Below, piece after piece: positions 1,446-12,328 of a DNA stretch of 12,328 nucleotides (positions are counted from its first letter, which is position 1; each line of letters begins with the position of its first letter). The stretch comes from Gemmatimonadota bacterium. GTDB taxonomy: Bacteria > GCA-2686955. Under the pieces are notes generated by a model. That model was not told where the DNA came from. It saw only the letters and a program-made list of their open reading frames with translations, and ran no database searches. The position numbers and the translations under genes were made by a program. Where the stretch lies: contig NYZA01000145.1 of the NCBI GenBank assembly GCA_002686955.1, positions 1 through 12,328 of the forward strand. Reading direction: 5' to 3'.

Positions 1446-3178
1446 AACGCGGAGGTCTCTGGTCCTTTCGGGGACTCCTGATCGGTCTGACGCTCTTGCA
1501 CCTCCTGCCGATCTGGTGCGTGGACCGGGTCCCCACCCAGGACGGCCCCATGCACCTGGAAACCGCCACGGCGCTACTGCACTACTCCGATCCAGGGCGG
1601 GACTACTCGCGCTTCTTTTACCGAAACACCGAGCCCGTGCCGAGTTTGCTCTCTCACGTCTTTCTTACGGGCGCGATGGCCGCGACGGGACCCCAGGTCG
1701 CAGAAAAACTCCTGCTGAGCATCTACGTCATCCTCTTCGTCGGGGGGGTCTATTGGCTTCTCTTTACCGTGGATCCGGAGCGAACGTTCTTCACCCTCCT
1801 CGCGTTTCCGATGATCTACAACTACTTGCTCCACGTCGGTCTTTACGGCTTCGTGATCAGTGTGCCCTTGTCGCTGTTGATCGTCGCCTGGTGGTGGAAG
1901 CAGGAGGAGCCACGGCGGTGGCGGACCCTGCTGATTCTCGTCGCCGCCCTCGTTCTGCTCTATTTCTGTCACCTGGTGCCGGTGGCGATTCTCTGTATGG
2001 TCCTCCCCGTCGTCGGGATCACCCGTCACCGCCTGGGCCCCGAGGGCCTGCTGCGCCTGGCGGTGGCGCTTCTCCTCGCGTGCGTCCTTCCGGCCTGGTT
2101 TCTGTATCGCTGGGGAACCGATGTTTCGCACTTCCGCCCTCTTTGGACCGGCGTGTGGGAGTTGGTCTCCTTTGATTCGCTGGCGTCCTTCAGTCCGGCG
2201 CAGCATTGGGTTGGACGCAGTCTCGGGTTGATCACCGCCCTCATCGTCGTTCACACCGTTCGGGCCCGCCGCAGCGACGCCACCTCCTCGACCGGTGCGT
2301 CCGGGGCTTTGCGGGCTGCGTGCGCGGGAGGCGAGGCGACATTCCTGGTCAGTGCTCTCTTGTGCGCGGCTCTCTACCTGGTCACCCCTGAAAACGTGTC
2401 CGAGGGTGGATTCGTGGTCGAGCGAGTGGCCCTTTATCCGTTTCTTCTTCTCCTTCCCTGGCTCGAACCCCGCTTTCGTCGATCGGCTCAAAAACGTGCC
2501 CTTGGGTGCGCCCTCGTCGCGCTGACCCTGGTCCACCTGGGGCAGACCCTGCACTACTACCGGGAAACGGTCGACGATCTCGGCGAATACACGTCCGGTA
2601 TCCACCTCGTCCACCCGGACGACACGATCCTGCCGGTCCATTTCGACGGGACGACGTCCGGACAGGTTTTCGAATCGCACTATCGTGTCGGTATTCTCTG
2701 GCATGGGGTGGGTCATTATTGTGCTGAAGCCGGCGCCATCGGGCTCTTCAATATTCAGGGGAACAAGCGGCTCTTCCCCTTGAGCTACTTTGCAGAAATG
2801 CACCCGTTCGACACGATGGGAGATCTTCGCGGTGGTAATCCTCGGGACATTGATCCGTCCGGGTATCCTGTGCCCATCGACGTCATCCTCGTCTGGGGCT
2901 GGACCGGCAACGTGGACGGGATCGATGAACCGGCTGAACTCGAGCGATTGACACGCAATTATCGGCTCGTTCACCGGACGCCTCGACTGCGGCTCTACCG
3001 ACTGCAGGGGCGGAAGTCTCCGGTGCGGATCGCATCGACCTGGGCATCAACGCTGTGGACTACTCGGGCTATCCCGATTGTCGGCCGGAGTATCTCGAGG
3101 CCTTCCAGCGGCTGGCCAACCTGGCGACAGCGTCCGGGGTCGAAGGACGGACTCAGGTCACGATCCATGCGCCCCTGA
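1442..3178 (+). CDS. Polytopic membrane protein, GT-C-like, with readthrough C-terminus
   Basis: The protein is 578 aa from the GTG start. I do not recognise a named family. About nine hydrophobic segments are visible, near residues 9-26, 88-108, 115-150 (two), 162-190, 202-222, 260-273, 300-315, 328-342 and 355-370. A hydrophilic domain of about 140 residues follows. The first loop carries [10 protein letters not shown], an acidic residue after the first membrane helix as in GT-C-fold glycosyltransferases (PMT/ArnT-like), which act on lipid-linked sugars. The natural C-terminus appears to be near LRLYRLQG (about residue 523). Residues after this, rich in S, R, T and W, are out-of-frame readthrough of a queC fragment and are probably not native. 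It is coupled to the upstream methyltransferase, suggesting a shared envelope or glycan task. The glycosyltransferase idea is an inference; a membrane protein is certain. Confidence 0.75.
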
Positions 3179-3357
3179 TCCACCTCGCGAAGGCCGAGAT
3201 CATTCGGCGAGGTCTCGCCTGCGGGGTCGACTACGGCCGGACCATGTCTTGTTATGAGCCTGACCCGTCGGAGGCGCCATGTGGTCGTTGCGACAGCTGC
3301 GCAATTCGCGCGGCGGCTTTTGCAGAGGTGGGAATCCCCGATCCACTCATCCGCTAG
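3010..3357 (+). pseudogene. queC: 3' fragment of queC (7-cyano-7-deazaguanine synthase)
   Basis: In frame 1, from about base 3010, the product reads [20 protein letters not shown] then [15 protein letters not shown], and later [16 protein letters not shown]. It ends with the zinc-binding cluster [18 protein letters not shown] (Cys-x9-Cys-x2-Cys-x2-Cys) and stops at TAG 3355-3357. These are signature blocks of QueC, the ATP-dependent enzyme making preQ0 for queuosine. About 115 residues remain, against about 220-230 in full QueC; the N-terminal PP-loop ATP-binding motif (SGGxDS) is missing. The fragment has no start codon or ribosome site of its own (the GTG at 3055 lies inside a conserved block) and sits in a different frame from the membrane protein it joins. 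It is a non-functional remnant left by a deletion or rearrangement, unless the junction is an assembly error. Confidence 0.85.
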
Positions 3358-3454: not shown

Positions 3455-3471
3455 GAGCCCCTGCGGGGCTC
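3455..3471. terminator. GC hairpin at the convergent gene ends
   Basis: GAGCCCC 3455-3461 pairs perfectly with GGGGCTC 3465-3471 over a 3-base loop. It overlaps two bases of the TGA stop of the minus-strand lipoprotein gene and lies between convergent genes, where a bidirectional terminator is expected. No U-tract is present on either strand, so termination, if any, would be of the U-less type. Confidence 0.4.
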
Positions 3472-5539
3472 AAGGGTCGGACAGGTCGTAGTAGAAGGGG
3501 AGCTTCGGGTCGACGCGTTCCATCAGAATTCGCTCCGTGGAGAGTTCGGGGTGTTCGTCGAAAGGTGCGAGCTTCAGGTGGTGGACGGTTCCGGGGATGC
3601 GGTCGGCTACCCCGGGCAATCGTTGACCGTCCAGGATCGTCCAGTGAACCACCTGGATCCGCTCGTCATCGAGACCGGCTTCGACGTCATAGCTGAATAC
3701 GGCCAGGGCCCGCCGATAGGGAGCCAGCGTGCGCGGTTCGGGCGTCGGTGTGGGATGAACCAGTCGGGCCTGTACTTCGACGCCTGGTACGGTGCGTCGA
3801 CGGTGAAGCCGACTCTGGTAGAGGTCATGTTTCAGGGAGACTTCCCGTGCCTTGACGGTTCGCGCGTAGATCGCGATCCCTTCGATGGAACCGGACCAGT
3901 TCGAATCATGGTTGGGTGTGTCGCCGAAGCGAAGAGAGCCGCCCGTCCAGGACCGTGGATCCGCCTCGGGGGCGTTGGCTGTGAAAACGGGCTCGCCATT
4001 CACGTGGCTCTCGACAGTGCCACCGCTGACGTTGACCACCAGGTGGGTTCGCATTTCGGCGGATGCGGACCCGACTGGAAAGCGGCTCACGCGGGAAGGA
4101 TCTTGCGCCGCGGAGATTTCCAGGTAGATCGTTTCTCGATCCTGTAGGAGTCGGATTTGCGTTTGCCCGGTGGTGTCCGAGAAGCAAACGATGGTGGCAC
4201 CGCCTGGTTCCATGGATCGACGCGGCGTGACGAGCATTTCCAGGGCGAAGGCACCGGTGAGTCGGCACGCTTCGATCACCTGCTCTCCCTCCCTTCGCGC
4301 GAGGAAGGATCCACCGTTGGTGTTCATCGTGCCGTGTCGGCCCCAGCGGGCGTGTTTCTGGGGCTCTACCCGGCAGACGCGGGTGGAGTTTCCCGAGATG
4401 ACTTCGTTGGGTGCCAGGGAGTCTCGCCACAAGAAGACGAGGTCTCTGAGGTCACCGGGCCAGTGGTTGGTGGAGTCGATCCCAGGCTCCTGCAACGCTG
4501 GGGTCGGGGCAGGGGAAGCCACGGAGGCGGGCACCCGCGCCTCGCTCCCCCCCTGGATCCAGGCATCCGGCCAGAAATCCCCGCGGTCATTGCGGGTCGC
4601 TCGAGCCCATGCTTCGATGCGGGTGTAGTTTGCATCGAAACGCCCCAGGTAGATCTCGACTCCCGGGCCACCCTTGTCGAGCTTTATATCGTCGTCTCCC
4701 AGCGTGTACGGGGCGCTGATTGCGAGATGGCGGACATGATTGGTCCATCGTGGGTGATAGATCTCGAGCCCCTCGATGCCCGGGGCCGTGCTCAAGTCCA
4801 CCTGCCACTCACTTCGGCTGGACTCCCGCAGGACGTGAAGATTGCGGTGGGGACCGTCCAGTGCCCAGAAAAGGTGGCTCCCGTCCGGGGCGATGTCCGG
4901 CCAGCATCCAATCCGGTATCGGTGCCAGCTTCCGGTCGTCAGGTCCAGCAAGCCCGCGTCGGGCCACGGGCAGGTGGCGGCGGCGCGGAGTCCGTCACCT
5001 GCCACGCTGAACCAGCCCCAGGTCACATCCATGCCGTCCCACACAGTTTCTTCGCGATGCGGCTCGTCGACAGGAAAGCGTCGGCAAGGGAGGGTGCCCT
5101 CGTTTCCGAATTGTTCCACGGCGTAGACCCAGTCGACCCGAGCGTCCTTGTCTCGCCATAGATCTACGGCGAATCCATCCGATAGGCGCCGGTGATTGGA
5201 TCCGTCCCAGTCGACGATCCAAATCGATCGATCGATGCGGTCGGAATAGACGATCCGGTTGCCCTCTGCGGTGATCATCGGCTTGGCATAATTCGAGACT
5301 GTGGGCAGGAGTGCTCGTTCTCCACGCCCGTCGTCGCTGTCCAGGCCCATGAGCCGGAGTTCCCCTCTGTCCGACAAGGGATCGGAGTCCGTACCGGCGT
5401 CTTGTACCCATGCAATCCGGGTATGGGCACCCGTGAGTTCACGGGTGTCCCGCGATGATTCGGAGGGTGTGCCGGGGCCGCAGGCGGAGAGAGCGGTTGC
5501 GGCCAACACGGTGCAGAATTCATTGGCGATTCGTTTCAC
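3470..5539 (-). CDS. Lipoprotein with PD40/TolB-like propeller and LamG-like domain
   Basis: The protein has 689 aa, starting at GTG 5539. This start gives the M-K-R n-region, a hydrophobic stretch, and the lipobox LSAC with Cys20 as the lipidation site; an in-frame ATG eight codons upstream (5563) would spoil the signal. The GTG overlaps the TGA of the preceding gene (GTGA), and AGGTGG sits 3-4 bases before it. Residues ~75-330 carry propeller-like repeats such as EGNRIVYSDRIDRSIWIVDW with DGSNHRRLSDG, as in TolB/PD40 proteins. Residues ~405-575 resemble a LamG/concanavalin-like sheet domain (SFLARREG, FALEMLVTP, TVESHVNGEPVF, GSIEGIAIYARTVKAREVSLK). Residues 580-689 are of unknown fold. It lacks obvious enzyme motifs, so an outer-membrane or periplasmic glycan-binding or scaffold role for the acetylation enzymes encoded upstream is inferred. 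A proline/alanine-rich linker near 335-350 separates the domains. Confidence 0.75.
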   Translation of the reverse strand: MKRIANEFCTVLAATALSACGPGTPSESSRDTRELTGAHTRIAWVQDAGTDSDPLSDRGELRLMGLDSDDGRGERALLPTVSNYAKPMITAEGNRIVYSDRIDRSIWIVDWDGSNHRRLSDGFAVDLWRDKDARVDWVYAVEQFGNEGTLPCRRFPVDEPHREETVWDGMDVTWGWFSVAGDGLRAAATCPWPDAGLLDLTTGSWHRYRIGCWPDIAPDGSHLFWALDGPHRNLHVLRESSRSEWQVDLSTAPGIEGLEIYHPRWTNHVRHLAISAPYTLGDDDIKLDKGGPGVEIYLGRFDANYTRIEAWARATRNDRGDFWPDAWIQGGSEARVPASVASPAPTPALQEPGIDSTNHWPGDLRDLVFLWRDSLAPNEVISGNSTRVCRVEPQKHARWGRHGTMNTNGGSFLARREGEQVIEACRLTGAFALEMLVTPRRSMEPGGATIVCFSDTTGQTQIRLLQDRETIYLEISAAQDPSRVSRFPVGSASAEMRTHLVVNVSGGTVESHVNGEPVFTANAPEADPRSWTGGSLRFGDTPNHDSNWSGSIEGIAIYARTVKAREVSLKHDLYQSRLHRRRTVPGVEVQARLVHPTPTPEPRTLAPYRRALAVFSYDVEAGLDDERIQVVHWTILDGQRLPGVADRIPGTVHHLKLAPFDEHPELSTERILMERVDPKLPFYYDLSDP

Positions 5540-8232
5540 GGGACCACCTGGATTTTCTGCCATCCGCCGATTGTGCGGGTCAAGCTTGGGGCGTTGACGA
5601 TCCACAGGACGCAACGCTTTCCGCGGAGCCGGTTCGGGTTTCGTGCGAGGGTCATTCGGGGCGCATTGGCCCCGGAACCGCGAACGGCGATCAGGTCGAC
5701 GGGAAAGCCCAATTCGAGGGCCAGGTGATCCGGAAGTCCGGCTCCCGTCGCGTGCATGTCGCCGCCTGCGTGGAATATGAGGCCGTGGCTGTCGGCGAGG
5801 ACCAGGAAGGGGCTCGATTCCGTGGGACGAATGGGCTCCGGGGGATCTGTGGCCTGTCGCTGGACGAAATCCAATTCCATCTCTTCGGTGCCGAAGGCTG
5901 GGTCGGCGAGGTTGCGGGCGAGGTCGCCGTAGATTTCCACCGTTCGCCGCTCCGTGGTCATTTCTACCTGTCGTTCTTCCTGGACCCAGGACCGGGACCG
6001 GATGACGTCCACGATGCGTTCGGCAACGATGCGGCTGGCCGTACCGGACCAGTGGGAGTCGCGCCGGCAAAAAAGCGGGTCTCCGCCCGCTCTTCGAGCG
6101 GCACGAAAATCCTGAACGAGATCGATGACGGTCACGCCTTGGCTTCGAAGGGCGGAGTAGAAAGCCTGGTGGTACGGATCGAGCCGCGCTCCGCTCGCCA
6201 GGTTCGGCCCCTCCCAACCGGGAAGGGCTTCATCGGGATAGATGATCGCTTTGGCTGGGACGGGGACGAAGAGCAATTCGATTCCGGCACGCTCTAGTTG
6301 TTGGTGGAAGTCCACGATCGCGTCCGCCGGGTCGCTCCCTCCGGCAGGCCCCTGCTCGGTGAAGCGGCCCATTCCCAGGTGCAGAAATTCGCCAACAAGA
6401 TAGAGCCACCCGTCCCGGCCCTTCACCACGGTTTCTCCGCGGCCCTCGGCGTCCGTGGCCCGGTCGATCAATCCGGCGCGAAAGGGGTCGGAGTCGGTGC
6501 CCGTGGTCCTTGCGGGGCTTGGCTCCAGCGGTTCGGCGAGCGGGGACGTCTGCGTCGAGCCTTCGGGCTCCGCCCAATAGGGGACCAGTCGACGAATTTC
6601 CGGGTCGTCGAGTTCGATCCGCTGGTGACTGCCCAGCCGGTCTTCTACCTGCGTCCATGGAGTCAGGCTCAGCCGAACCCGCTGTCCGGGGCGAAAATTC
6701 GCGGCGTTCGTCGGACGGTTGTCGAGAAGTCCCCACATGTAGGCCATCAATGTCGAGTTCCCGAACTCGGGACCTTCGGTCCGAATTTCGTCCAGGCGAA
6801 CCGAGATGATGCAATCTCGATAGGGAGTGGAACCGGGCTCAGGGATGCCCGACACAGCGGTGATCCGTCCCGTGACGACGACGGCGTCTGCGCCCTCCAC
6901 GGCGGAGCCCTCCTCTATCTTCGACGCCGGCGCGACGGTGCCCAGGTCGATCGATTTCCAATCGCCCCAGCTCAATTGGTGCATTGCGAACTCGTAGATC
7001 ACCATCTTTTTCCCTGCGAGCCGGTCGTTCCCGCGGGCAATGGCGTCGGCCAGTGCCCGTCGAACGGACAAGGCGCCTCCGGCGTTCATGCGGATTGCAT
7101 CGATGGGTCGTCCGAGTTCGACGCTCAGTTGTTCCACGAAGCCTGCTCCCTCACCCCATCCCAAGTCGCCCTGAGAGTAGATGTTGCTGTAGCTGTCTCC
7201 GAGGACCAGTACGTCAGCCTGCGGATCCGGACGCCACTTCCGCCCCTGCGAATCACTCACGGGGTGAATCGTGACGCTTTCCCGGAGGGACTCCTGGAGC
7301 GTGCTCGGTAGGCCCAACATGACGGCGACATCGCCGACGTTCTGGACGTTGACTGCGGCCGTGATTTCGAAAGGTCGAGATGGATTTCCCGGGTCCAGTT
7401 CTTCGCGAAGGAATCGGGCAAGGCCGTGAGCCGCGGCACGGGCCCCCTCCGGTGTCCAGTGGCTGTCGGTGTCCAGGTAGGCGGAGCCATACTTCCGGCG
7501 AGTTTCCCAGAGATCATGGCTGGGGTCGTACAGGTGCACGCTCGCGGCGTCCAGGCGGCGTCGAAACTCGTCGAAGGACGGGCTGTAGAGTGGACCGTCT
7601 TCTTCCGTGTAGCGTGCCGACCATTGCTCCGGGTGTAGGGCTGCCTTGGAGGGCACCGGCATCAGCACCAGGTCGATCCCGCGGGCGGCCAATTGATCCC
7701 GGAAGTCGATGATTGCCGTGAGAGGGTTCGGGTGGGCGGGTGCGTTCCACGGGGCCACGGACCGCTCCCGCCGAGTGAGTGCGCGGGCCTCGAGAAACCC
7801 CGGTGCTGTGAGGTGTGTGACGCCCGGCGCAAAGAAGAGCCAGTCATCGCGGCCGATCCATGCGCGCTCGGTGCCCACCCTCAAGACCGAGGCGAGCCAT
7901 GCATGGACGTGGGGTCGGACCATGGCGGCAACGGTCGACTGTCTTTCCAGGGCCTGCTCGTAATCGCGCAATTCGGGGACGGTCGGGAGAAGATCGAGGG
8001 CGTCTCGGAGTCCTCGGATTCCGGCGAGTTCCTTCACGGGGGGCACGAACTCGAACACGTCATAACACTGCGGGAGGCGAAAGCCGCCGGTGTCCGGCTC
8101 CCGGAGTTCCGTTACGTGCTGCACGATCGGCACGGAGAAGAGCGTGACGGCACAAAGGACCACCAGCCAACGCCCCGGAAGACCGGTGCCGGGACCAGGA
8201 TCGACGGTTTCTGGAGCGTGATTCGGGGACAT
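5536..8232 (-). CDS. Tandem (double-headed) AlgX/AlgJ-like SGNH O-acetyltransferase
   Basis: The protein has 898 aa. An N-terminal membrane anchor or uncleaved signal at residues ~21-40 implies export to the periplasm. Two AlgX/AlgJ-type units follow. Unit 1 (~120-430) has GRDDWLFF (127-134), FRDQLAARGIDLVLMPVPSK, the Asp-x-His motif DSHW (D256, H258) and the nucleophile motif LGDS (S347). Unit 2 (~600-898) has GRDGWLY (605-611), FHQQLERAGIELLFVPVPAK, DSHW (D725, H727) and LADS (S815). Both therefore keep the Asp-His-Ser residues used by AlgX-family enzymes. Between them (~445-545) lies a strand-rich domain (VVVTGRITAV, YRDCIISVRL, PGQRVRLSLTPW) like the extra module of some AlgX relatives. 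Pseudomonas AlgX and AlgJ have one SGNH domain each and about half this length. The start ATG 8232 overlaps the previous stop (TGATG) and lacks a Shine-Dalgarno, so it depends on coupling to the algI-like gene. Likely role: transfer of acetyl groups from the MBOAT partner onto a periplasmic polysaccharide. The polymer is unknown. Confidence 0.9.
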   Translation of the reverse strand: MSPNHAPETVDPGPGTGLPGRWLVVLCAVTLFSVPIVQHVTELREPDTGGFRLPQCYDVFEFVPPVKELAGIRGLRDALDLLPTVPELRDYEQALERQSTVAAMVRPHVHAWLASVLRVGTERAWIGRDDWLFFAPGVTHLTAPGFLEARALTRRERSVAPWNAPAHPNPLTAIIDFRDQLAARGIDLVLMPVPSKAALHPEQWSARYTEEDGPLYSPSFDEFRRRLDAASVHLYDPSHDLWETRRKYGSAYLDTDSHWTPEGARAAAHGLARFLREELDPGNPSRPFEITAAVNVQNVGDVAVMLGLPSTLQESLRESVTIHPVSDSQGRKWRPDPQADVLVLGDSYSNIYSQGDLGWGEGAGFVEQLSVELGRPIDAIRMNAGGALSVRRALADAIARGNDRLAGKKMVIYEFAMHQLSWGDWKSIDLGTVAPASKIEEGSAVEGADAVVVTGRITAVSGIPEPGSTPYRDCIISVRLDEIRTEGPEFGNSTLMAYMWGLLDNRPTNAANFRPGQRVRLSLTPWTQVEDRLGSHQRIELDDPEIRRLVPYWAEPEGSTQTSPLAEPLEPSPARTTGTDSDPFRAGLIDRATDAEGRGETVVKGRDGWLYLVGEFLHLGMGRFTEQGPAGGSDPADAIVDFHQQLERAGIELLFVPVPAKAIIYPDEALPGWEGPNLASGARLDPYHQAFYSALRSQGVTVIDLVQDFRAARRAGGDPLFCRRDSHWSGTASRIVAERIVDVIRSRSWVQEERQVEMTTERRTVEIYGDLARNLADPAFGTEEMELDFVQRQATDPPEPIRPTESSPFLVLADSHGLIFHAGGDMHATGAGLPDHLALELGFPVDLIAVRGSGANAPRMTLARNPNRLRGKRCVLWIVNAPSLTRTIGGWQKIQVVP

Positions 8233-9689
8233 CAGAACACGAAGTAGATGAATGGGTTGTGGGTTTGCGTCATCAGCATGATCAAAGAGAGCCAGAGCAA
8301 GACGGCGGCTACGATGGCTTTCGGCCAGGTGAATTCCTTGCACCAATGCCACGTATTGGGGCAACCCCAGATGACAGCGGCCGAAATGGCCAGCACTCCG
8401 ATGGAATGAGGTCCGTACAGAATCCCGCCGGCGAGCCCCGTGGCTTCCGGGACGTACCCGAGACCGAACAAGTTGCCGAGGAGCCGGAAGGCACTCTCCA
8501 GGTCCGGAGACCGGAAGAAGGGCCAGGTCACTTGGAGAACGAGGAAGGTCGCGGCGACCTGCAGCGGCTCGGGAAGCCGGTGGAAAAAGGAACGCCCCCC
8601 CAGCGCCCGTTCGCCCATGAGCAGTCCGGCGTGAATGACTCCCCACACCACGAACCTCCATGATGCGCCGTGCCACAGGGCGAAGAGAAGCATGACCGTC
8701 CACAGGTTGGCGAGGGTGCGAGCTTTGCCCCGGCGATTGCCGCCCAGGGGGATGTAGAGGTAGTCGCGGAGCCAGGAAGACAGTGAAATGTGCCAGCGTG
8801 GCCAGAAGGTCGTGAAGGACTTCGACTTGTAAGGGGAGTCGAAGTTGATGGGATAGGTGAAGCCGAAGACCAATCCAAGACCGACCGCCATATCGGAATA
8901 GCCACTGAAATCGAAGTAGATCTGAAACGCGTAAGCGATCATTCCGACCCACGCGTCGAGCGTCTCGGCCGCTCCGGCATCAAAAACCGCGTCCGCGATC
9001 GTCCCGCAAGGATTGGCGAGGAGGACCTTCTTCGCCATGCCGAGGCAGAAGAAGAGCGCCCCCCGGGCCGCCATGTCGATGCTGTGGGTGCGCCGGTGGA
9101 GCGCATCCGCCACCTGGTGGAAGCGCACGATGGGGCCCGCCACGAGTTGCGGAAACATCGACACGTAGCAGGCGAAATCCACGAAATTTCCGACGGGTCG
9201 AGCGCGTCCGCGGTACACGTCGATGGTGTAGCTCATTGACTGGAACGTGTAGAAGCTGATGCCGAGGGGAAGTGCGATGCGCAGCGTCGTGTGCCATTGC
9301 AGGGCGTCGAGGCCGAGCAGATGGAAGAACCCGTTGTAGCTGTCGAGGGCGAAGTGGAAGTACTTGAAGAAACCGAGGAGCGCCAGGTTGCACACGATCG
9401 ACACGGTCAATGCTGCCCGTTGATGACGGGAGCGGGGGGTGCCTTCGGGCAGCGCTTCTCGTCGACCGTCGGATCCACGGGGAGCGCGTCGCGCGATATA
9501 GGCTCCACACGCGTAATCCACCGCCGTGGACGCCATCATCAGGAAGACGTACCGGGGGTTCGACCAACCGTAGAAAGCGTAACTGAGAGCCGTCAGGCCG
9601 AGGTTCTTGCCTCGGCGAGGCAGAGCGAAATAGACGATCAGCGCCGTCGGCAGGAAGTAGTGAACGAAGAGGTGGCTGGAAAAGACCAT
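8232..9689 (-). CDS. algI: MBOAT O-acyltransferase, AlgI family
   Basis: The protein has 485 aa, normal for AlgI (about 470-520), and is an inner-membrane protein with many hydrophobic helices. The start ATG 9689 gives the usual N-terminus (MVFSSHLFVHYFLP); a weak CAGGA at 9706-9702 is 12 bases upstream. Family signatures include LPLGISFYTFQSMSYTIDVY (140-159), VAGPIVRF (183-190), YFDFSGYSDMAVGLG (258-272), the MBOAT block FWPRWHISLSSWLRDYLYIP (295-314) with GGNRRG next, and the catalytic-type His340 in LWHGASW. In alginate and related systems AlgI carries acetyl groups across the inner membrane to periplasmic AlgJ/AlgX-type transferases. Here the next gene encodes exactly such an enzyme, joined by a TGATG stop/start overlap. 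The gene is first in a three-gene coupled operon. Calling it AlgI describes family membership, not alginate as the substrate. Confidence 0.92.
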   Translation of the reverse strand: MVFSSHLFVHYFLPTALIVYFALPRRGKNLGLTALSYAFYGWSNPRYVFLMMASTAVDYACGAYIARRAPRGSDGRREALPEGTPRSRHQRAALTVSIVCNLALLGFFKYFHFALDSYNGFFHLLGLDALQWHTTLRIALPLGISFYTFQSMSYTIDVYRGRARPVGNFVDFACYVSMFPQLVAGPIVRFHQVADALHRRTHSIDMAARGALFFCLGMAKKVLLANPCGTIADAVFDAGAAETLDAWVGMIAYAFQIYFDFSGYSDMAVGLGLVFGFTYPINFDSPYKSKSFTTFWPRWHISLSSWLRDYLYIPLGGNRRGKARTLANLWTVMLLFALWHGASWRFVVWGVIHAGLLMGERALGGRSFFHRLPEPLQVAATFLVLQVTWPFFRSPDLESAFRLLGNLFGLGYVPEATGLAGGILYGPHSIGVLAISAAVIWGCPNTWHWCKEFTWPKAIVAAVLLWLSLIMLMTQTHNPFIYFVF

Positions 9690-9867: not shown

Positions 9868-11541
9868 TCACCCTGAAGTGCGGGTCATTGTATCGCTCGG
9901 TGGATTCCCTGCGATTGACTCCACTTCTCTTCGAAGATCGATGGAATCGCTCACCTGGGATGCGTTTCGGCGAGGATCGGGCCGTCCTGCCCCAGGCCGG
10001 ATCCGGCGGTGAATCGACATCCACATCTGGGCGATGGTGAGTCTCACCAGGTAGGTGAACTTGGTGTCTCCGATTCGCAACGCGTTGAGCGCGACCAGGA
10101 ACCGTTCCACCATTTCACTTCCTGGGAGGTGGGCCAGTCGCCACACCCATCGGTCCAGAGAGCGTCGATGGCCTCCGGGCAGCGGGATCATGGCCAGGAG
10201 GATTCTCTGGGCCCGGTAAGCCAAGGGGGCTTCGATCATCGGGCCGCGGGTAGGCTGGGGCGAGAGGTCGCCGTGTTCCAGCCGAGAGGCCTCTTCTTCC
10301 GTGAAAATGCCGGCGTCTACGCCCTGCGGAACCAACGAGGTGCCGGGATAATAGGATAGTGGGAAGGTCAGTAGCCGGTCCGGGTGGAGCGACCGAAAAA
10401 GTTCGATGTCCTGTTTCCGGTCTGCTGCGGTCTCCCCGGGAGAACCGATGATCTTGTCCACGGCGAGTTGGATTCCGGCGGATCGGAGGGTATCGGCGGT
10501 TCCCTGGATCCTGTCACCGGTTTCCGAACGATTCATGCTCGATCGTCGGATCTTCCGGCTACCGGACTGAACCCCCATGGTGATCATCCGGCACCCGGCA
10601 CCGGCGAGGCCCTCGGCCAATTCTCGATTCACCAACCCGGGGTAGGTATAGGCCCAAAACGGCAGCCCGATTTCCTCCCGGTAGGCGTCCAGGAAATCCT
10701 CGAGCCAATTGCGATTGAGGGTGAAGATCGCGTCCATGAAGGAAACTTGTCGCACCCGCCCCCGGGCCTTTACCGCGCGGAGTTCCGCCATTACGTGTTC
10801 GACGCTGCGGCGGCGCACCCGTCGCCGGTCGCCGATTTCCGCGTAGGTCCGGTTGTACATTTCCACGGAACAAAAGGAGCACGATTGTGGACATCCGAGA
10901 GACGTCATTGTCAGGTAGTTCGTTTCCATCGCCGGGACCTGGTCGTAGAAGAGCGTGAAATCTCGGATCGGCAGGCAATCGAGGTCATCGAAATAGGGTC
11001 GAATGGAGTTTCGAACGATCTCGTTTCCATCCCTCGACCAGACATTGGGGATACCCGGGGGCACGTGGCCCATTTCTACAGCTGCAACGAGTTCCGGCAA
11101 TGCTTCGAATGATTCCCCGAGCACGACGGCGTCCACCTGGGGATAGGACATCGTTGCTTCCGGGGCGGCCAGTACGTGCACACCACCAAATACGTTGACC
11201 GTTCGCGGGAGTGCTCGCTTGATGGCGGAGGCTGTAGCGAGCATCCAACGAAAGTTGTCCGTGTAGCATGAATAGCAAATGACGTCCGGATCGAACTCTT
11301 TCGCGGTCTTGACGATGTGATCAGTGCAGTCGAGGAGGCGCACCAGTGGTTCGATCCGAACGAGCGGTTCCCCGCGGAACGGCTGGGGGTCGAACGCCAG
11401 GCGAACGTCGTGCCCGGCCGCCTTCAACGTGGCCGAGAGCCAGGTGACGCCCAGGTGCTCGTTGGAATTGAAGACGAATAGAACCCGCTTGGCCCGGATG
11501 TTTCGGCGTGGTCCGATCGTTTGTGTCTCGCGCGTGATCAT
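9868..11541 (-). CDS. B12-binding-domain radical SAM protein
   Basis: The protein has 557 aa. Residues ~18-165 form a Rossmann-like cobalamin-binding type domain (KRVLFVFNSNEHLGVTWLSA, FDPDVICYSCYT, VFGGVHVLAAPE, VDAVVLGESFEALPELV), with NEHLG where the H-x-x-G of B12 domains is expected. The radical SAM core begins at SLGCPQSCSFC, with the iron-sulfur ligands C217, C221 and C224, followed by SFMDAIFTLN, GCRMITMGVQSGS and DKIIGSPGET, typical of Elp3/MiaB-like barrels. Family members methylate or rearrange unreactive carbons, often in lipid or natural-product pathways; the substrate here is unknown. Start ATG 11541 fits the domain start; there is no Shine-Dalgarno, but a TATAAT lies 7 bases upstream. 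The last ~40 residues (from RRIRPGAGRP) are low-complexity and could be readthrough past an older stop. It is separated by 178 bases from the AlgI-like gene, so co-transcription is possible but not shown. Confidence 0.88.
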   Translation of the reverse strand: MITRETQTIGPRRNIRAKRVLFVFNSNEHLGVTWLSATLKAAGHDVRLAFDPQPFRGEPLVRIEPLVRLLDCTDHIVKTAKEFDPDVICYSCYTDNFRWMLATASAIKRALPRTVNVFGGVHVLAAPEATMSYPQVDAVVLGESFEALPELVAAVEMGHVPPGIPNVWSRDGNEIVRNSIRPYFDDLDCLPIRDFTLFYDQVPAMETNYLTMTSLGCPQSCSFCSVEMYNRTYAEIGDRRRVRRRSVEHVMAELRAVKARGRVRQVSFMDAIFTLNRNWLEDFLDAYREEIGLPFWAYTYPGLVNRELAEGLAGAGCRMITMGVQSGSRKIRRSSMNRSETGDRIQGTADTLRSAGIQLAVDKIIGSPGETAADRKQDIELFRSLHPDRLLTFPLSYYPGTSLVPQGVDAGIFTEEEASRLEHGDLSPQPTRGPMIEAPLAYRAQRILLAMIPLPGGHRRSLDRWVWRLAHLPGSEMVERFLVALNALRIGDTKFTYLVRLTIAQMWMSIHRRIRPGAGRPDPRRNASQVSDSIDLRREVESIAGNPPSDTMTRTSG

Positions 11542-11547
11542 GCAACG

Positions 11548-11553
11548 ATTATA
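11548..11553 (-). promoter_or_regulatory. Perfect -10 box (TATAAT) placing +1 at the start codon
   Basis: On the minus strand TATAAT occupies 11553-11548, and the ATG of the radical SAM gene begins 7 bases downstream at 11541. With a usual 6-8 base spacing the transcript would start at or next to the A of ATG, giving a leaderless mRNA. This agrees with the lack of a ribosome-binding site. The -35 region (GGACCG about 17 bases upstream) is poor, so the promoter may need an activator, or the match may be chance. Confidence 0.45.
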
Positions 11554-12328
11554 GCGCGCGATTCGGGGGCCGGTCCGATCATGCGGACTTCCGCGCACTT
11601 CGTCGAGTTATGGTCGGCCCGGTGCGCGGTGGAAATGGAGCGGATAGGCACTCCAAACCGGGTTTCCGCTCTATTCGGTGTAACCAACCCGCCCGCAATC
11701 ATGCCCAGTCTTCTCTCGGCCTTCTCCCCGGCACCGCTCCTGACCGTCCTTTGCGGTGGCCCCCCGGGGGCCATTTCGGTTGAGTTCCTGCTTGGCGCGC
11801 GCCTTTTCACGCGAGAGCCGCCCACGCCGGGCAAGCTCCGCCCCTCGCACTACATGGATGCTGCGCTTCTTGCCGAGATCGAGAGCGGTCGCGGCGTGCG
11901 CGACGACGGGAGCGGCCGGAGTCAGGCGAAGTCGAGCTCGAGCTCATCGAGCGGGTTCGAGGGGCGGCGCTACTAGTGCTTTTGAACACACGTTTCAACA
12001 ACTGCGCCCAAGTCAGTCTATTGCGCCGCCGCGCGGGGAAATCCTCGACCTGATCTTCGCACTCTGTCGTGCGCTCGGGGCAATGGCCGGCCGGGAACCC
12101 GAAGGCGGCGAAGCGTGATTTGGCCGCTGCTTTTCTGTACCAGGTTGCAGCGAGACATCTTGGGACGACTGAGCACTGGCGATCTGGTCGCCGTGATTCG
12201 ACGCCAGGCACGCCCCGCCGATCCGCGCGGGCCGAACGCGGCGCCCTGCGTGACCGCGAGTCGACAAAGCAAGGCGCGCCCCAGACCTGGTCGACCAGGC
12301 ACGCCGGGCCTCCGCTCAAGCGACCCCA
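11554..12328. other. 775 bases without an intact gene
   Basis: Open frames here are short, overlapping on both strands and unlike known families, apart from the transposase-like stretch near 11984-12031. The segment holds two DNA palindromes: TGGCCCCC/GGGGGCCA around one base at 11757-11773, and GAGCTCGAGCTC at 11934-11945. It looks like a decayed intergenic or mobile-element region at the upstream side of the radical SAM gene. Confidence 0.5.
11984..12031 (-). pseudogene. IS91-family transposase relic (C-terminal motif)
   Basis: The minus strand encodes RRRNRLTWAQLLKRVF, very like the '[RY]xWAxLLxRVF' block that precedes the C-terminal zinc-finger (IDxLxCPxCGGRM) of IS91/ISCR-type transposases. 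Directly after RVF the expected cysteine pairs are missing and the frame continues as serine-rich KSTSSAAPRTRS, so the gene is truncated or rearranged at about 11983. Upstream (to 12319) the same frame is open but not convincingly transposase-like. The identification rests on one short motif. Confidence 0.4.

Follow-up and report, generated by a model that had tools for sequence, protein, structure and literature searches.

A two-headed AlgJ/AlgX-type SGNH protein beside an MBOAT gene in a Gemmatimonadota bacterium and its possible role in polysaccharide O-acetylation

A single polypeptide with two complete AlgX/AlgJ-type active sites is encoded in the 12,328-nucleotide stretch of Gemmatimonadota DNA analysed here (the window). 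As an earlier note on this DNA had proposed, one reading frame holds both Asp-His-Ser triads whole, and both halves have the SGNH fold. Sequence comparisons indicate that the double-headed gene arose by the joining of two paralogues, A and B, that had long been separate, and not by duplication. The earlier note recognized the two sites without noticing the OB-fold-like domain that separates the heads or the other genes of the operon. The features are as follows.

8232..9689, minus strand: MBOAT O-acyltransferase with C-terminus ...NPFIYFVF (PF03062, 99 bits)
5536..8232, minus strand: fused double-SGNH gene, 898 aa (ATG at 8232, stop at 5538-5536)
8101..8181, minus strand: residues 18-44, N-terminal helix and putative single membrane anchor (AlphaFold helix and alignment)
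6943..7878, minus strand: SGNH head A, residues 119-430 (Pfam, triad, AlphaFold, VIA)
7465-7467, 7459-7461 and 7192-7194, minus strand: head A triad D256, H258 and S347
6976..6981, minus strand: H418-Q419, where A proteins have R-E (R in 83/84, E in 80/84; alignment)
6562..6912, minus strand: OB-fold-like beta domain, residues 441-557 (model, VIA, profile homology)
6457..6561, minus strand: linker, residues 558-592, replacing the signal peptide of stand-alone B proteins (pLDDT and alignments)
5539..6456, minus strand: SGNH head B, residues 593-898 (Pfam, triad, AlphaFold, VIA)
6058-6060, 6052-6054 and 5788-5790, minus strand: head B triad D725, H727 and S815
5584..5589, minus strand: P882-S883, where B proteins have R-E (R in 67/68 non-gap; alignment)
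3470..5539, minus strand: lipoprotein, GTG start at 5539, lipobox-like LSAC

The two SGNH heads and the domain between them

The frame was intact across all 898 codons, with no stop between the halves. When the halves were searched separately, as the earlier note had suggested, they scored 115.7 and 99.6 bits against Pfam PF16822 (ALGX; cut-off 26.5); the whole protein gave an E value of 1.2e-62. The order of catalytic residues is permuted in both heads, with DxH preceding the nucleophilic serine (D256-H258 before S347 and D725-H727 before S815), and the triads of both heads were invariant in 11/11 aligned fused proteins. An AlphaFold model of the full chain (35 sequences) had a mean pLDDT of 83.9 and was confident in both halves. 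Structure comparison placed AlgJ, AlgX and PatB1 as the nearest solved structures. Head B (residues 600-895) superimposed on AlgJ with a VIA Z of 24.6 (rmsd 2.9, 256 residues) and on AlgX with a Z of 22.6, and head A (residues 115-431) superimposed on PatB1 and a DHHW protein with a VIA Z of about 16. The model and the structure comparison thus show the SGNH fold in both halves, and the outcome that the earlier note had named as refuting its claim, one half lacking this fold, did not arise.

The sequence landmarks lie at the residues given in the earlier note (DSHW at 256 and 725, GDS with Ser347, ADS with Ser815, ELG at 372 and 840), on a gene that is read from the minus strand. The GRD, PVP, DSHW and (G)DS landmarks that the two halves share are family-wide, however, and each head is much nearer to its separately encoded counterparts than the two heads are to each other. 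By sequence, AlgJ was nearest to both heads. Of the AlgJ signature motifs PhiPhiPhiPxK and (R/K)TDTHW (PMC4148444), PxK is retained as MPVPSK in head A and VPVPAK in head B, and the second motif is altered in both, to DTDSHW in A and RRDSHW in B. The AlgJ nucleophile motif GTSYS is absent from the two window heads, which have GDSYS (A) and ADSHG (B). The oxyanion tyrosine (AlgJ Y348) is also absent from both; the corresponding residue is Q419 in head A by profile alignment and S883 in head B by homologous motif, and relatives have Glu. The suggestion that one chain combines an AlgJ-like with an AlgX-like step is still the leading idea, although, judged by the defining motifs, neither half is orthologous to AlgJ or to AlgX.

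In the alignment the hydrophobic stretch within residues 18-44 coincided with A-protein anchors, and the fusion protein is probably held in the membrane by this one N-terminal helix. We assign residues 441-557 to A because the same domain is present in stand-alone A proteins. Modelled alone, this segment had a pLDDT of 87.8 and resembled PriB, RecO and SSB, with a VIA Z of 7.2 at which only a common arrangement can be claimed. Foldseek returned no match to it at E 0.001, and its profile matched none of the sequences of solved structures. The profile did match laminin-G lipoproteins over their last 100 residues (hhalign probability 94.7, E 6e-8) and, weakly, the N-terminus of further SGNH proteins beside some modules. 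The pLDDT fell below 50 at linker residues 559-578. No CBM family was found in the fusion protein by Pfam, and no domain follows head B.

Several loci carry a third, distant ALGX-type SGNH protein beside the module (L065:3-1910, L079:3-1601, L105:2272-4362, L073:6897-8432 and L049:4509-7948), which has an N-terminal OB-like domain in some genomes. The source genome itself encodes a second, weak ALGX-type SGNH protein of 352 aa adjoining a sulfatase-like gene (G000:C57:6748-7806, minus strand; L004).

The operon and the origin of the fused gene

The MBOAT C-terminus, FIYFVF, is an FxYxxF acetyl-shuttle motif, which was found at the C-terminal end of 77/77 complete MBOATs in the first set of loci and 20/20 in the second. 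This was the sole MBOAT found in the source genome, one MAG of 270 contigs and 84.5% completeness. The ATG of the double-SGNH gene overlaps the MBOAT stop codon (TGATG; 1 base) and the lipoprotein GTG overlaps the stop of the fusion (GTGA; 4 bases); these end-to-end overlaps of the three genes suggest translational coupling. The lipoprotein consists of a propeller-like region, a laminin-G domain and an OB-like C-terminus. Its family was matched by an ORF in 41/87 loci, a set that holds two duplicates and in which about ten Poribacteria match only in the OB-like end. In genome G084 the lipoprotein is fused directly to A; a seeming MBOAT-A fusion in very long frames of G084 relatives was rejected, as the frames merely overlap. 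At L045:6218-9913 (plus strand) head A is joined to propeller/laminin-G lipoprotein-type domains and not to B.

Glycosyltransferases follow the module at L065 and L068. Alginate genes were not found in the window, nor was a cellulose synthase context found at its locus. A search of six genomes for AlgF (PF11182) gave no match, though the positive controls likewise gave no signal. Upstream of the MBOAT gene, window positions 9868-11598 (minus strand) encode a B12-binding radical SAM protein that is absent beside the few other modules examined. A QueC gene cut short to profile positions 106-209 lies at positions 3004-3330 (plus strand). Contig 93 carries a full QueC that is 78% identical to it over 150 bases, and the truncated gene is likely what is left of a second copy.

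Scanning 84,980 species genomes yielded 80 loci, which were the top-scoring of 439; the set therefore leans towards relatives of the window protein. In many phyla an MBOAT gene is followed by A and B as separate, adjacent genes (e.g. G287, G266 and G149). With phmmer the N-terminal half scored 249-287 bits against A genes and 93-122 against B genes, the C-terminal half scored 177-241 bits against B genes, and cross-scores between the halves and the other group were 84-122 overall. In a tree of 108 heads the A/B split had SH-aLRT support of 99, with the N-terminal half of the window protein among A and the C-terminal half among B; our trees are unrooted, from a quick search, and include no AlgJ/AlgX/PatB outgroup. 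An internal duplication within one gene would also place the same fold twice in one chain, but the A/B tree refutes it: each half has its own stand-alone genes across a split with support of 99, and the N-terminal half scores far higher against A than against B. We regard this origin as having a negligible chance.

By A and B profiles, 58 of the 70 non-duplicate loci with both A and B (the window and a few survey loci included) have them as separate genes and 12 have them fused (the window, L061, L062, L063, L065, L066, L069, L070, L073, L074, L075 and L094). Locus L138 was rejected as a further case, since its A and B are not one chain. Hosts of the fused loci are Hydrogenedentes, Rhodothermota, Geomonas, Acidobacteriota, Verrucomicrobiota, a Deltaproteobacteria-labelled MAG and Planctomycetota. 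As 12 of 70 loci are fused, two of them in Geomonas isolates, we conclude that the fused architecture is real and recurrent. The window protein is not a singular case, with 11 further fused loci and widespread separate A and B genes; the earlier note's statement that such domains are on separate proteins in known systems holds for the alginate and cellulose systems (PMC4148444, PMC10302187). We found no description of a fused or tandem AlgJ/AlgX-type protein in open-access full text. On a concatenated tree the fused state requires three changes, at least two of them forced by well supported branches; most fused rows fall in one region and L075 lies clearly elsewhere. The fused chain of a Hydrogenedentes MAG (L062:5914-11391, plus strand) exceeds 1825 aa and continues as far as the contig end. 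It includes a propeller/laminin-G-like region and a further one or two SGNH matches, and the protein may carry three or four heads.

Stand-alone B proteins start with signal-peptide-like stretches, some with a lipobox, and the fused proteins have an Ala/Pro-rich or otherwise variable linker in that place, which argues for a real fusion behind the membrane anchor of A and not a missed stop. A sequencing error that deleted a stop and joined two genes is conceivable in a fragmented, incomplete MAG with a truncated QueC remnant about 2 kb from the fusion gene. However, the swap of the B signal peptide for a linker is more than a lost stop, and the fusion gene overlaps both of its neighbours. The 11 other fused loci, including those of the Geomonas isolates, rule out a one-off assembly fusion, and we consider an artefact very improbable.

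Occurrence of A without B and residues altered in the window copy

Many genomes have A and the MBOAT without B, and we therefore take A to be the MBOAT-proximal partner. Many A genes of G084-related genomes end before the OB domain, and B is mostly missing from those genomes. Across 44 genomes B was present in 13/18 with an OB-bearing A versus 3/26 without OB (Fisher 7e-5, in a test that ignores the relatedness of genomes), leaving five OB-bearing genomes without a detected B. This count left out G422, which has only a weak OB match elsewhere, and scored the weak B calls in G487, G394, G430 and G426 as B. Without the 11 genomes reached via loci selected for no adjacent B, the comparison was 7/7 versus 3/26. 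The distribution suggests that the smallest form of the system is a PatAB-like pair of A and the MBOAT, to which B is added as a second head accompanying the OB domain. In Spartobacteria and relatives (L087, L088, L089, L092, L096, L119 and L136) B is a divergent gene that lies upstream of MBOAT-A. A widespread MBOAT-A-B module is indicated, in which a propeller/laminin-G lipoprotein recurs and an OB-like domain is shared; no description of it was found in the open-access literature.

Next to the active site of each head, the window copy has lost an Arg-Glu pair that is otherwise nearly invariant. Position 419 is Glu or Asp in 83/84 A proteins and Gln in the window; position 883 is Glu or Asp in 64/68 B proteins and Ser in the window. 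The single exceptions at positions 418, 419 and 882 are each time the window copy itself. By profile alignment, with numbering converted from Ser288, position 419 aligns with AlgJ Y348, which is assigned to the oxyanion hole (PMC4148444). Both heads have thus changed at the same site. The residue before Asp814 is Ala in the window, Gly in 66/68 B domains and Ser in one. The earlier note had read this Ala as a hint of divergent specificity; it is unique among the compared B domains but is a weaker clue than the Arg-Glu loss. Head B also carries T856N. Overall, 8/81 conserved positions were changed in A and 9/65 in B, the fourth most deviant rank in each set, and the branch length of the window copy was 1.28 against a median of 0.58. 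The loss of the pair from both heads and the long branch imply that this copy may be altered or weakened: it has either shifted in specificity or rate or begun to weaken.

Proposed acetyl transfer and comparison with known systems

We give about an even chance to the reading that the fusion protein and the MBOAT form a system resembling AlgI/AlgJ/AlgX that adds O-acetyl groups to a polysaccharide outside the cytoplasm, with the heads in a relay from MBOAT to A to B. Architecture, triads, fold, fusion history, operon and shuttle motif are the observed basis of this reading; the membrane topology, acetyl group, glycan acceptor and A-to-B direction are the parts that we infer. The MBOAT would take acetyl from acetyl-CoA onto the tyrosine in the FIYFVF sequence at its C-terminus. 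Head A, kept near the MBOAT by the membrane helix, would accept the acetyl on Ser347, and head B, tethered via the OB domain and linker, would accept it on Ser815 and hand it to the glycan. In the alginate model acetyl passes from AlgI to AlgJ to AlgX with AlgF as mediator (PMC10641220), and PatA acetylates the Tyr of its FxYxxF tail, PatB using the acetyl-Tyr (PMC12148441). Tyrosine loading and handover to an SGNH serine are demonstrated for PatA/PatB only, and the A-to-B step would follow by analogy. A more specific form is possible but more tentative: a hard-wired two-step relay in which A charges B, the OB-like domain acts as an AlgF-type mediator, the MBOAT-A-B-lipoprotein system crosses phyla and the oxyanion/acceptor site is changed in both heads.

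Alternatively, the heads may be parallel transferases that both draw acetyl from the MBOAT tail and act on two positions or two places on the polymer, the fusion merely keeping both close to a single MBOAT. The invariant triads of both heads, their common nearest relative AlgJ and the single MBOAT found in the genome are consistent with this, as is the finding that WssI itself acetylates cello-oligomers, on account of which two terminal enzymes were suggested for cellulose (PMC10302187). However, the deep divergence of A and B and the occurrence of B mostly alongside A suggest different jobs, and alginate acetylation of any kind requires both active sites (PMC10641220); we hold parallel action to be less likely than the relay, though a serious rival to it. 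It is less likely still that one of the heads works as an esterase or a regulator, or that the window copy is degenerate, its Arg-Glu losses cutting transferase activity. Such a reading would account for R418H/E419Q and R882P/E883S at near-invariant positions, for G813A and T856N and for the long branch, and hydrolases are the majority of SGNH enzymes (PMC12148441). Against it, the open reading frame is intact, both triads and the overlapping operon are retained, and all but the few conserved positions counted above are kept, the copy being the extreme of neither set. For the relay, the AlgJ-to-AlgX step is itself a proposal, and the need for two active O-acetyltransferases in alginate acetylation has been described as unclear (PMC4148444). 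A natural fusion fixes the ratio of the heads, so single active-site mutants of one chain could separate relay from parallel action.

Like AlgI/AlgJ/AlgF/AlgX of Pseudomonas alginate, the system described here combines an MBOAT with two permuted AlgJ/AlgX-type SGNH proteins, A resembling AlgJ as a putative membrane-anchored partner and B resembling AlgX as one exported without an anchor. It differs from the alginate system in that the heads are fused, A carries the OB-fold-like domain whereas the second alginate enzyme carries a CBM, and the heads have GDS/ADS in place of GTSYS and lack the oxyanion Tyr. WssH/WssI/WssF of acetylated cellulose likewise join an MBOAT and two SGNH proteins in one operon, but the SGNH proteins are separate. 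PatA/PatB and PatA1/PatB1, which act on peptidoglycan and secondary wall polymer, share an FxYxxF-tailed MBOAT feeding an SGNH enzyme, and A with the MBOAT alone, as in many genomes, resembles such a pair. These systems have a single SGNH head, however, and PatB has the canonical S-G-N-H order with a block III Asn, whereas the order in A and B is permuted. OatA-type AT3-SGNH fusions also have an acyl-Tyr donor, an SGNH acceptor and a fusion holding partners together; in those proteins the membrane donor is joined to a single SGNH domain, whereas in the present system the fusion unites two SGNH heads and leaves the MBOAT separate.
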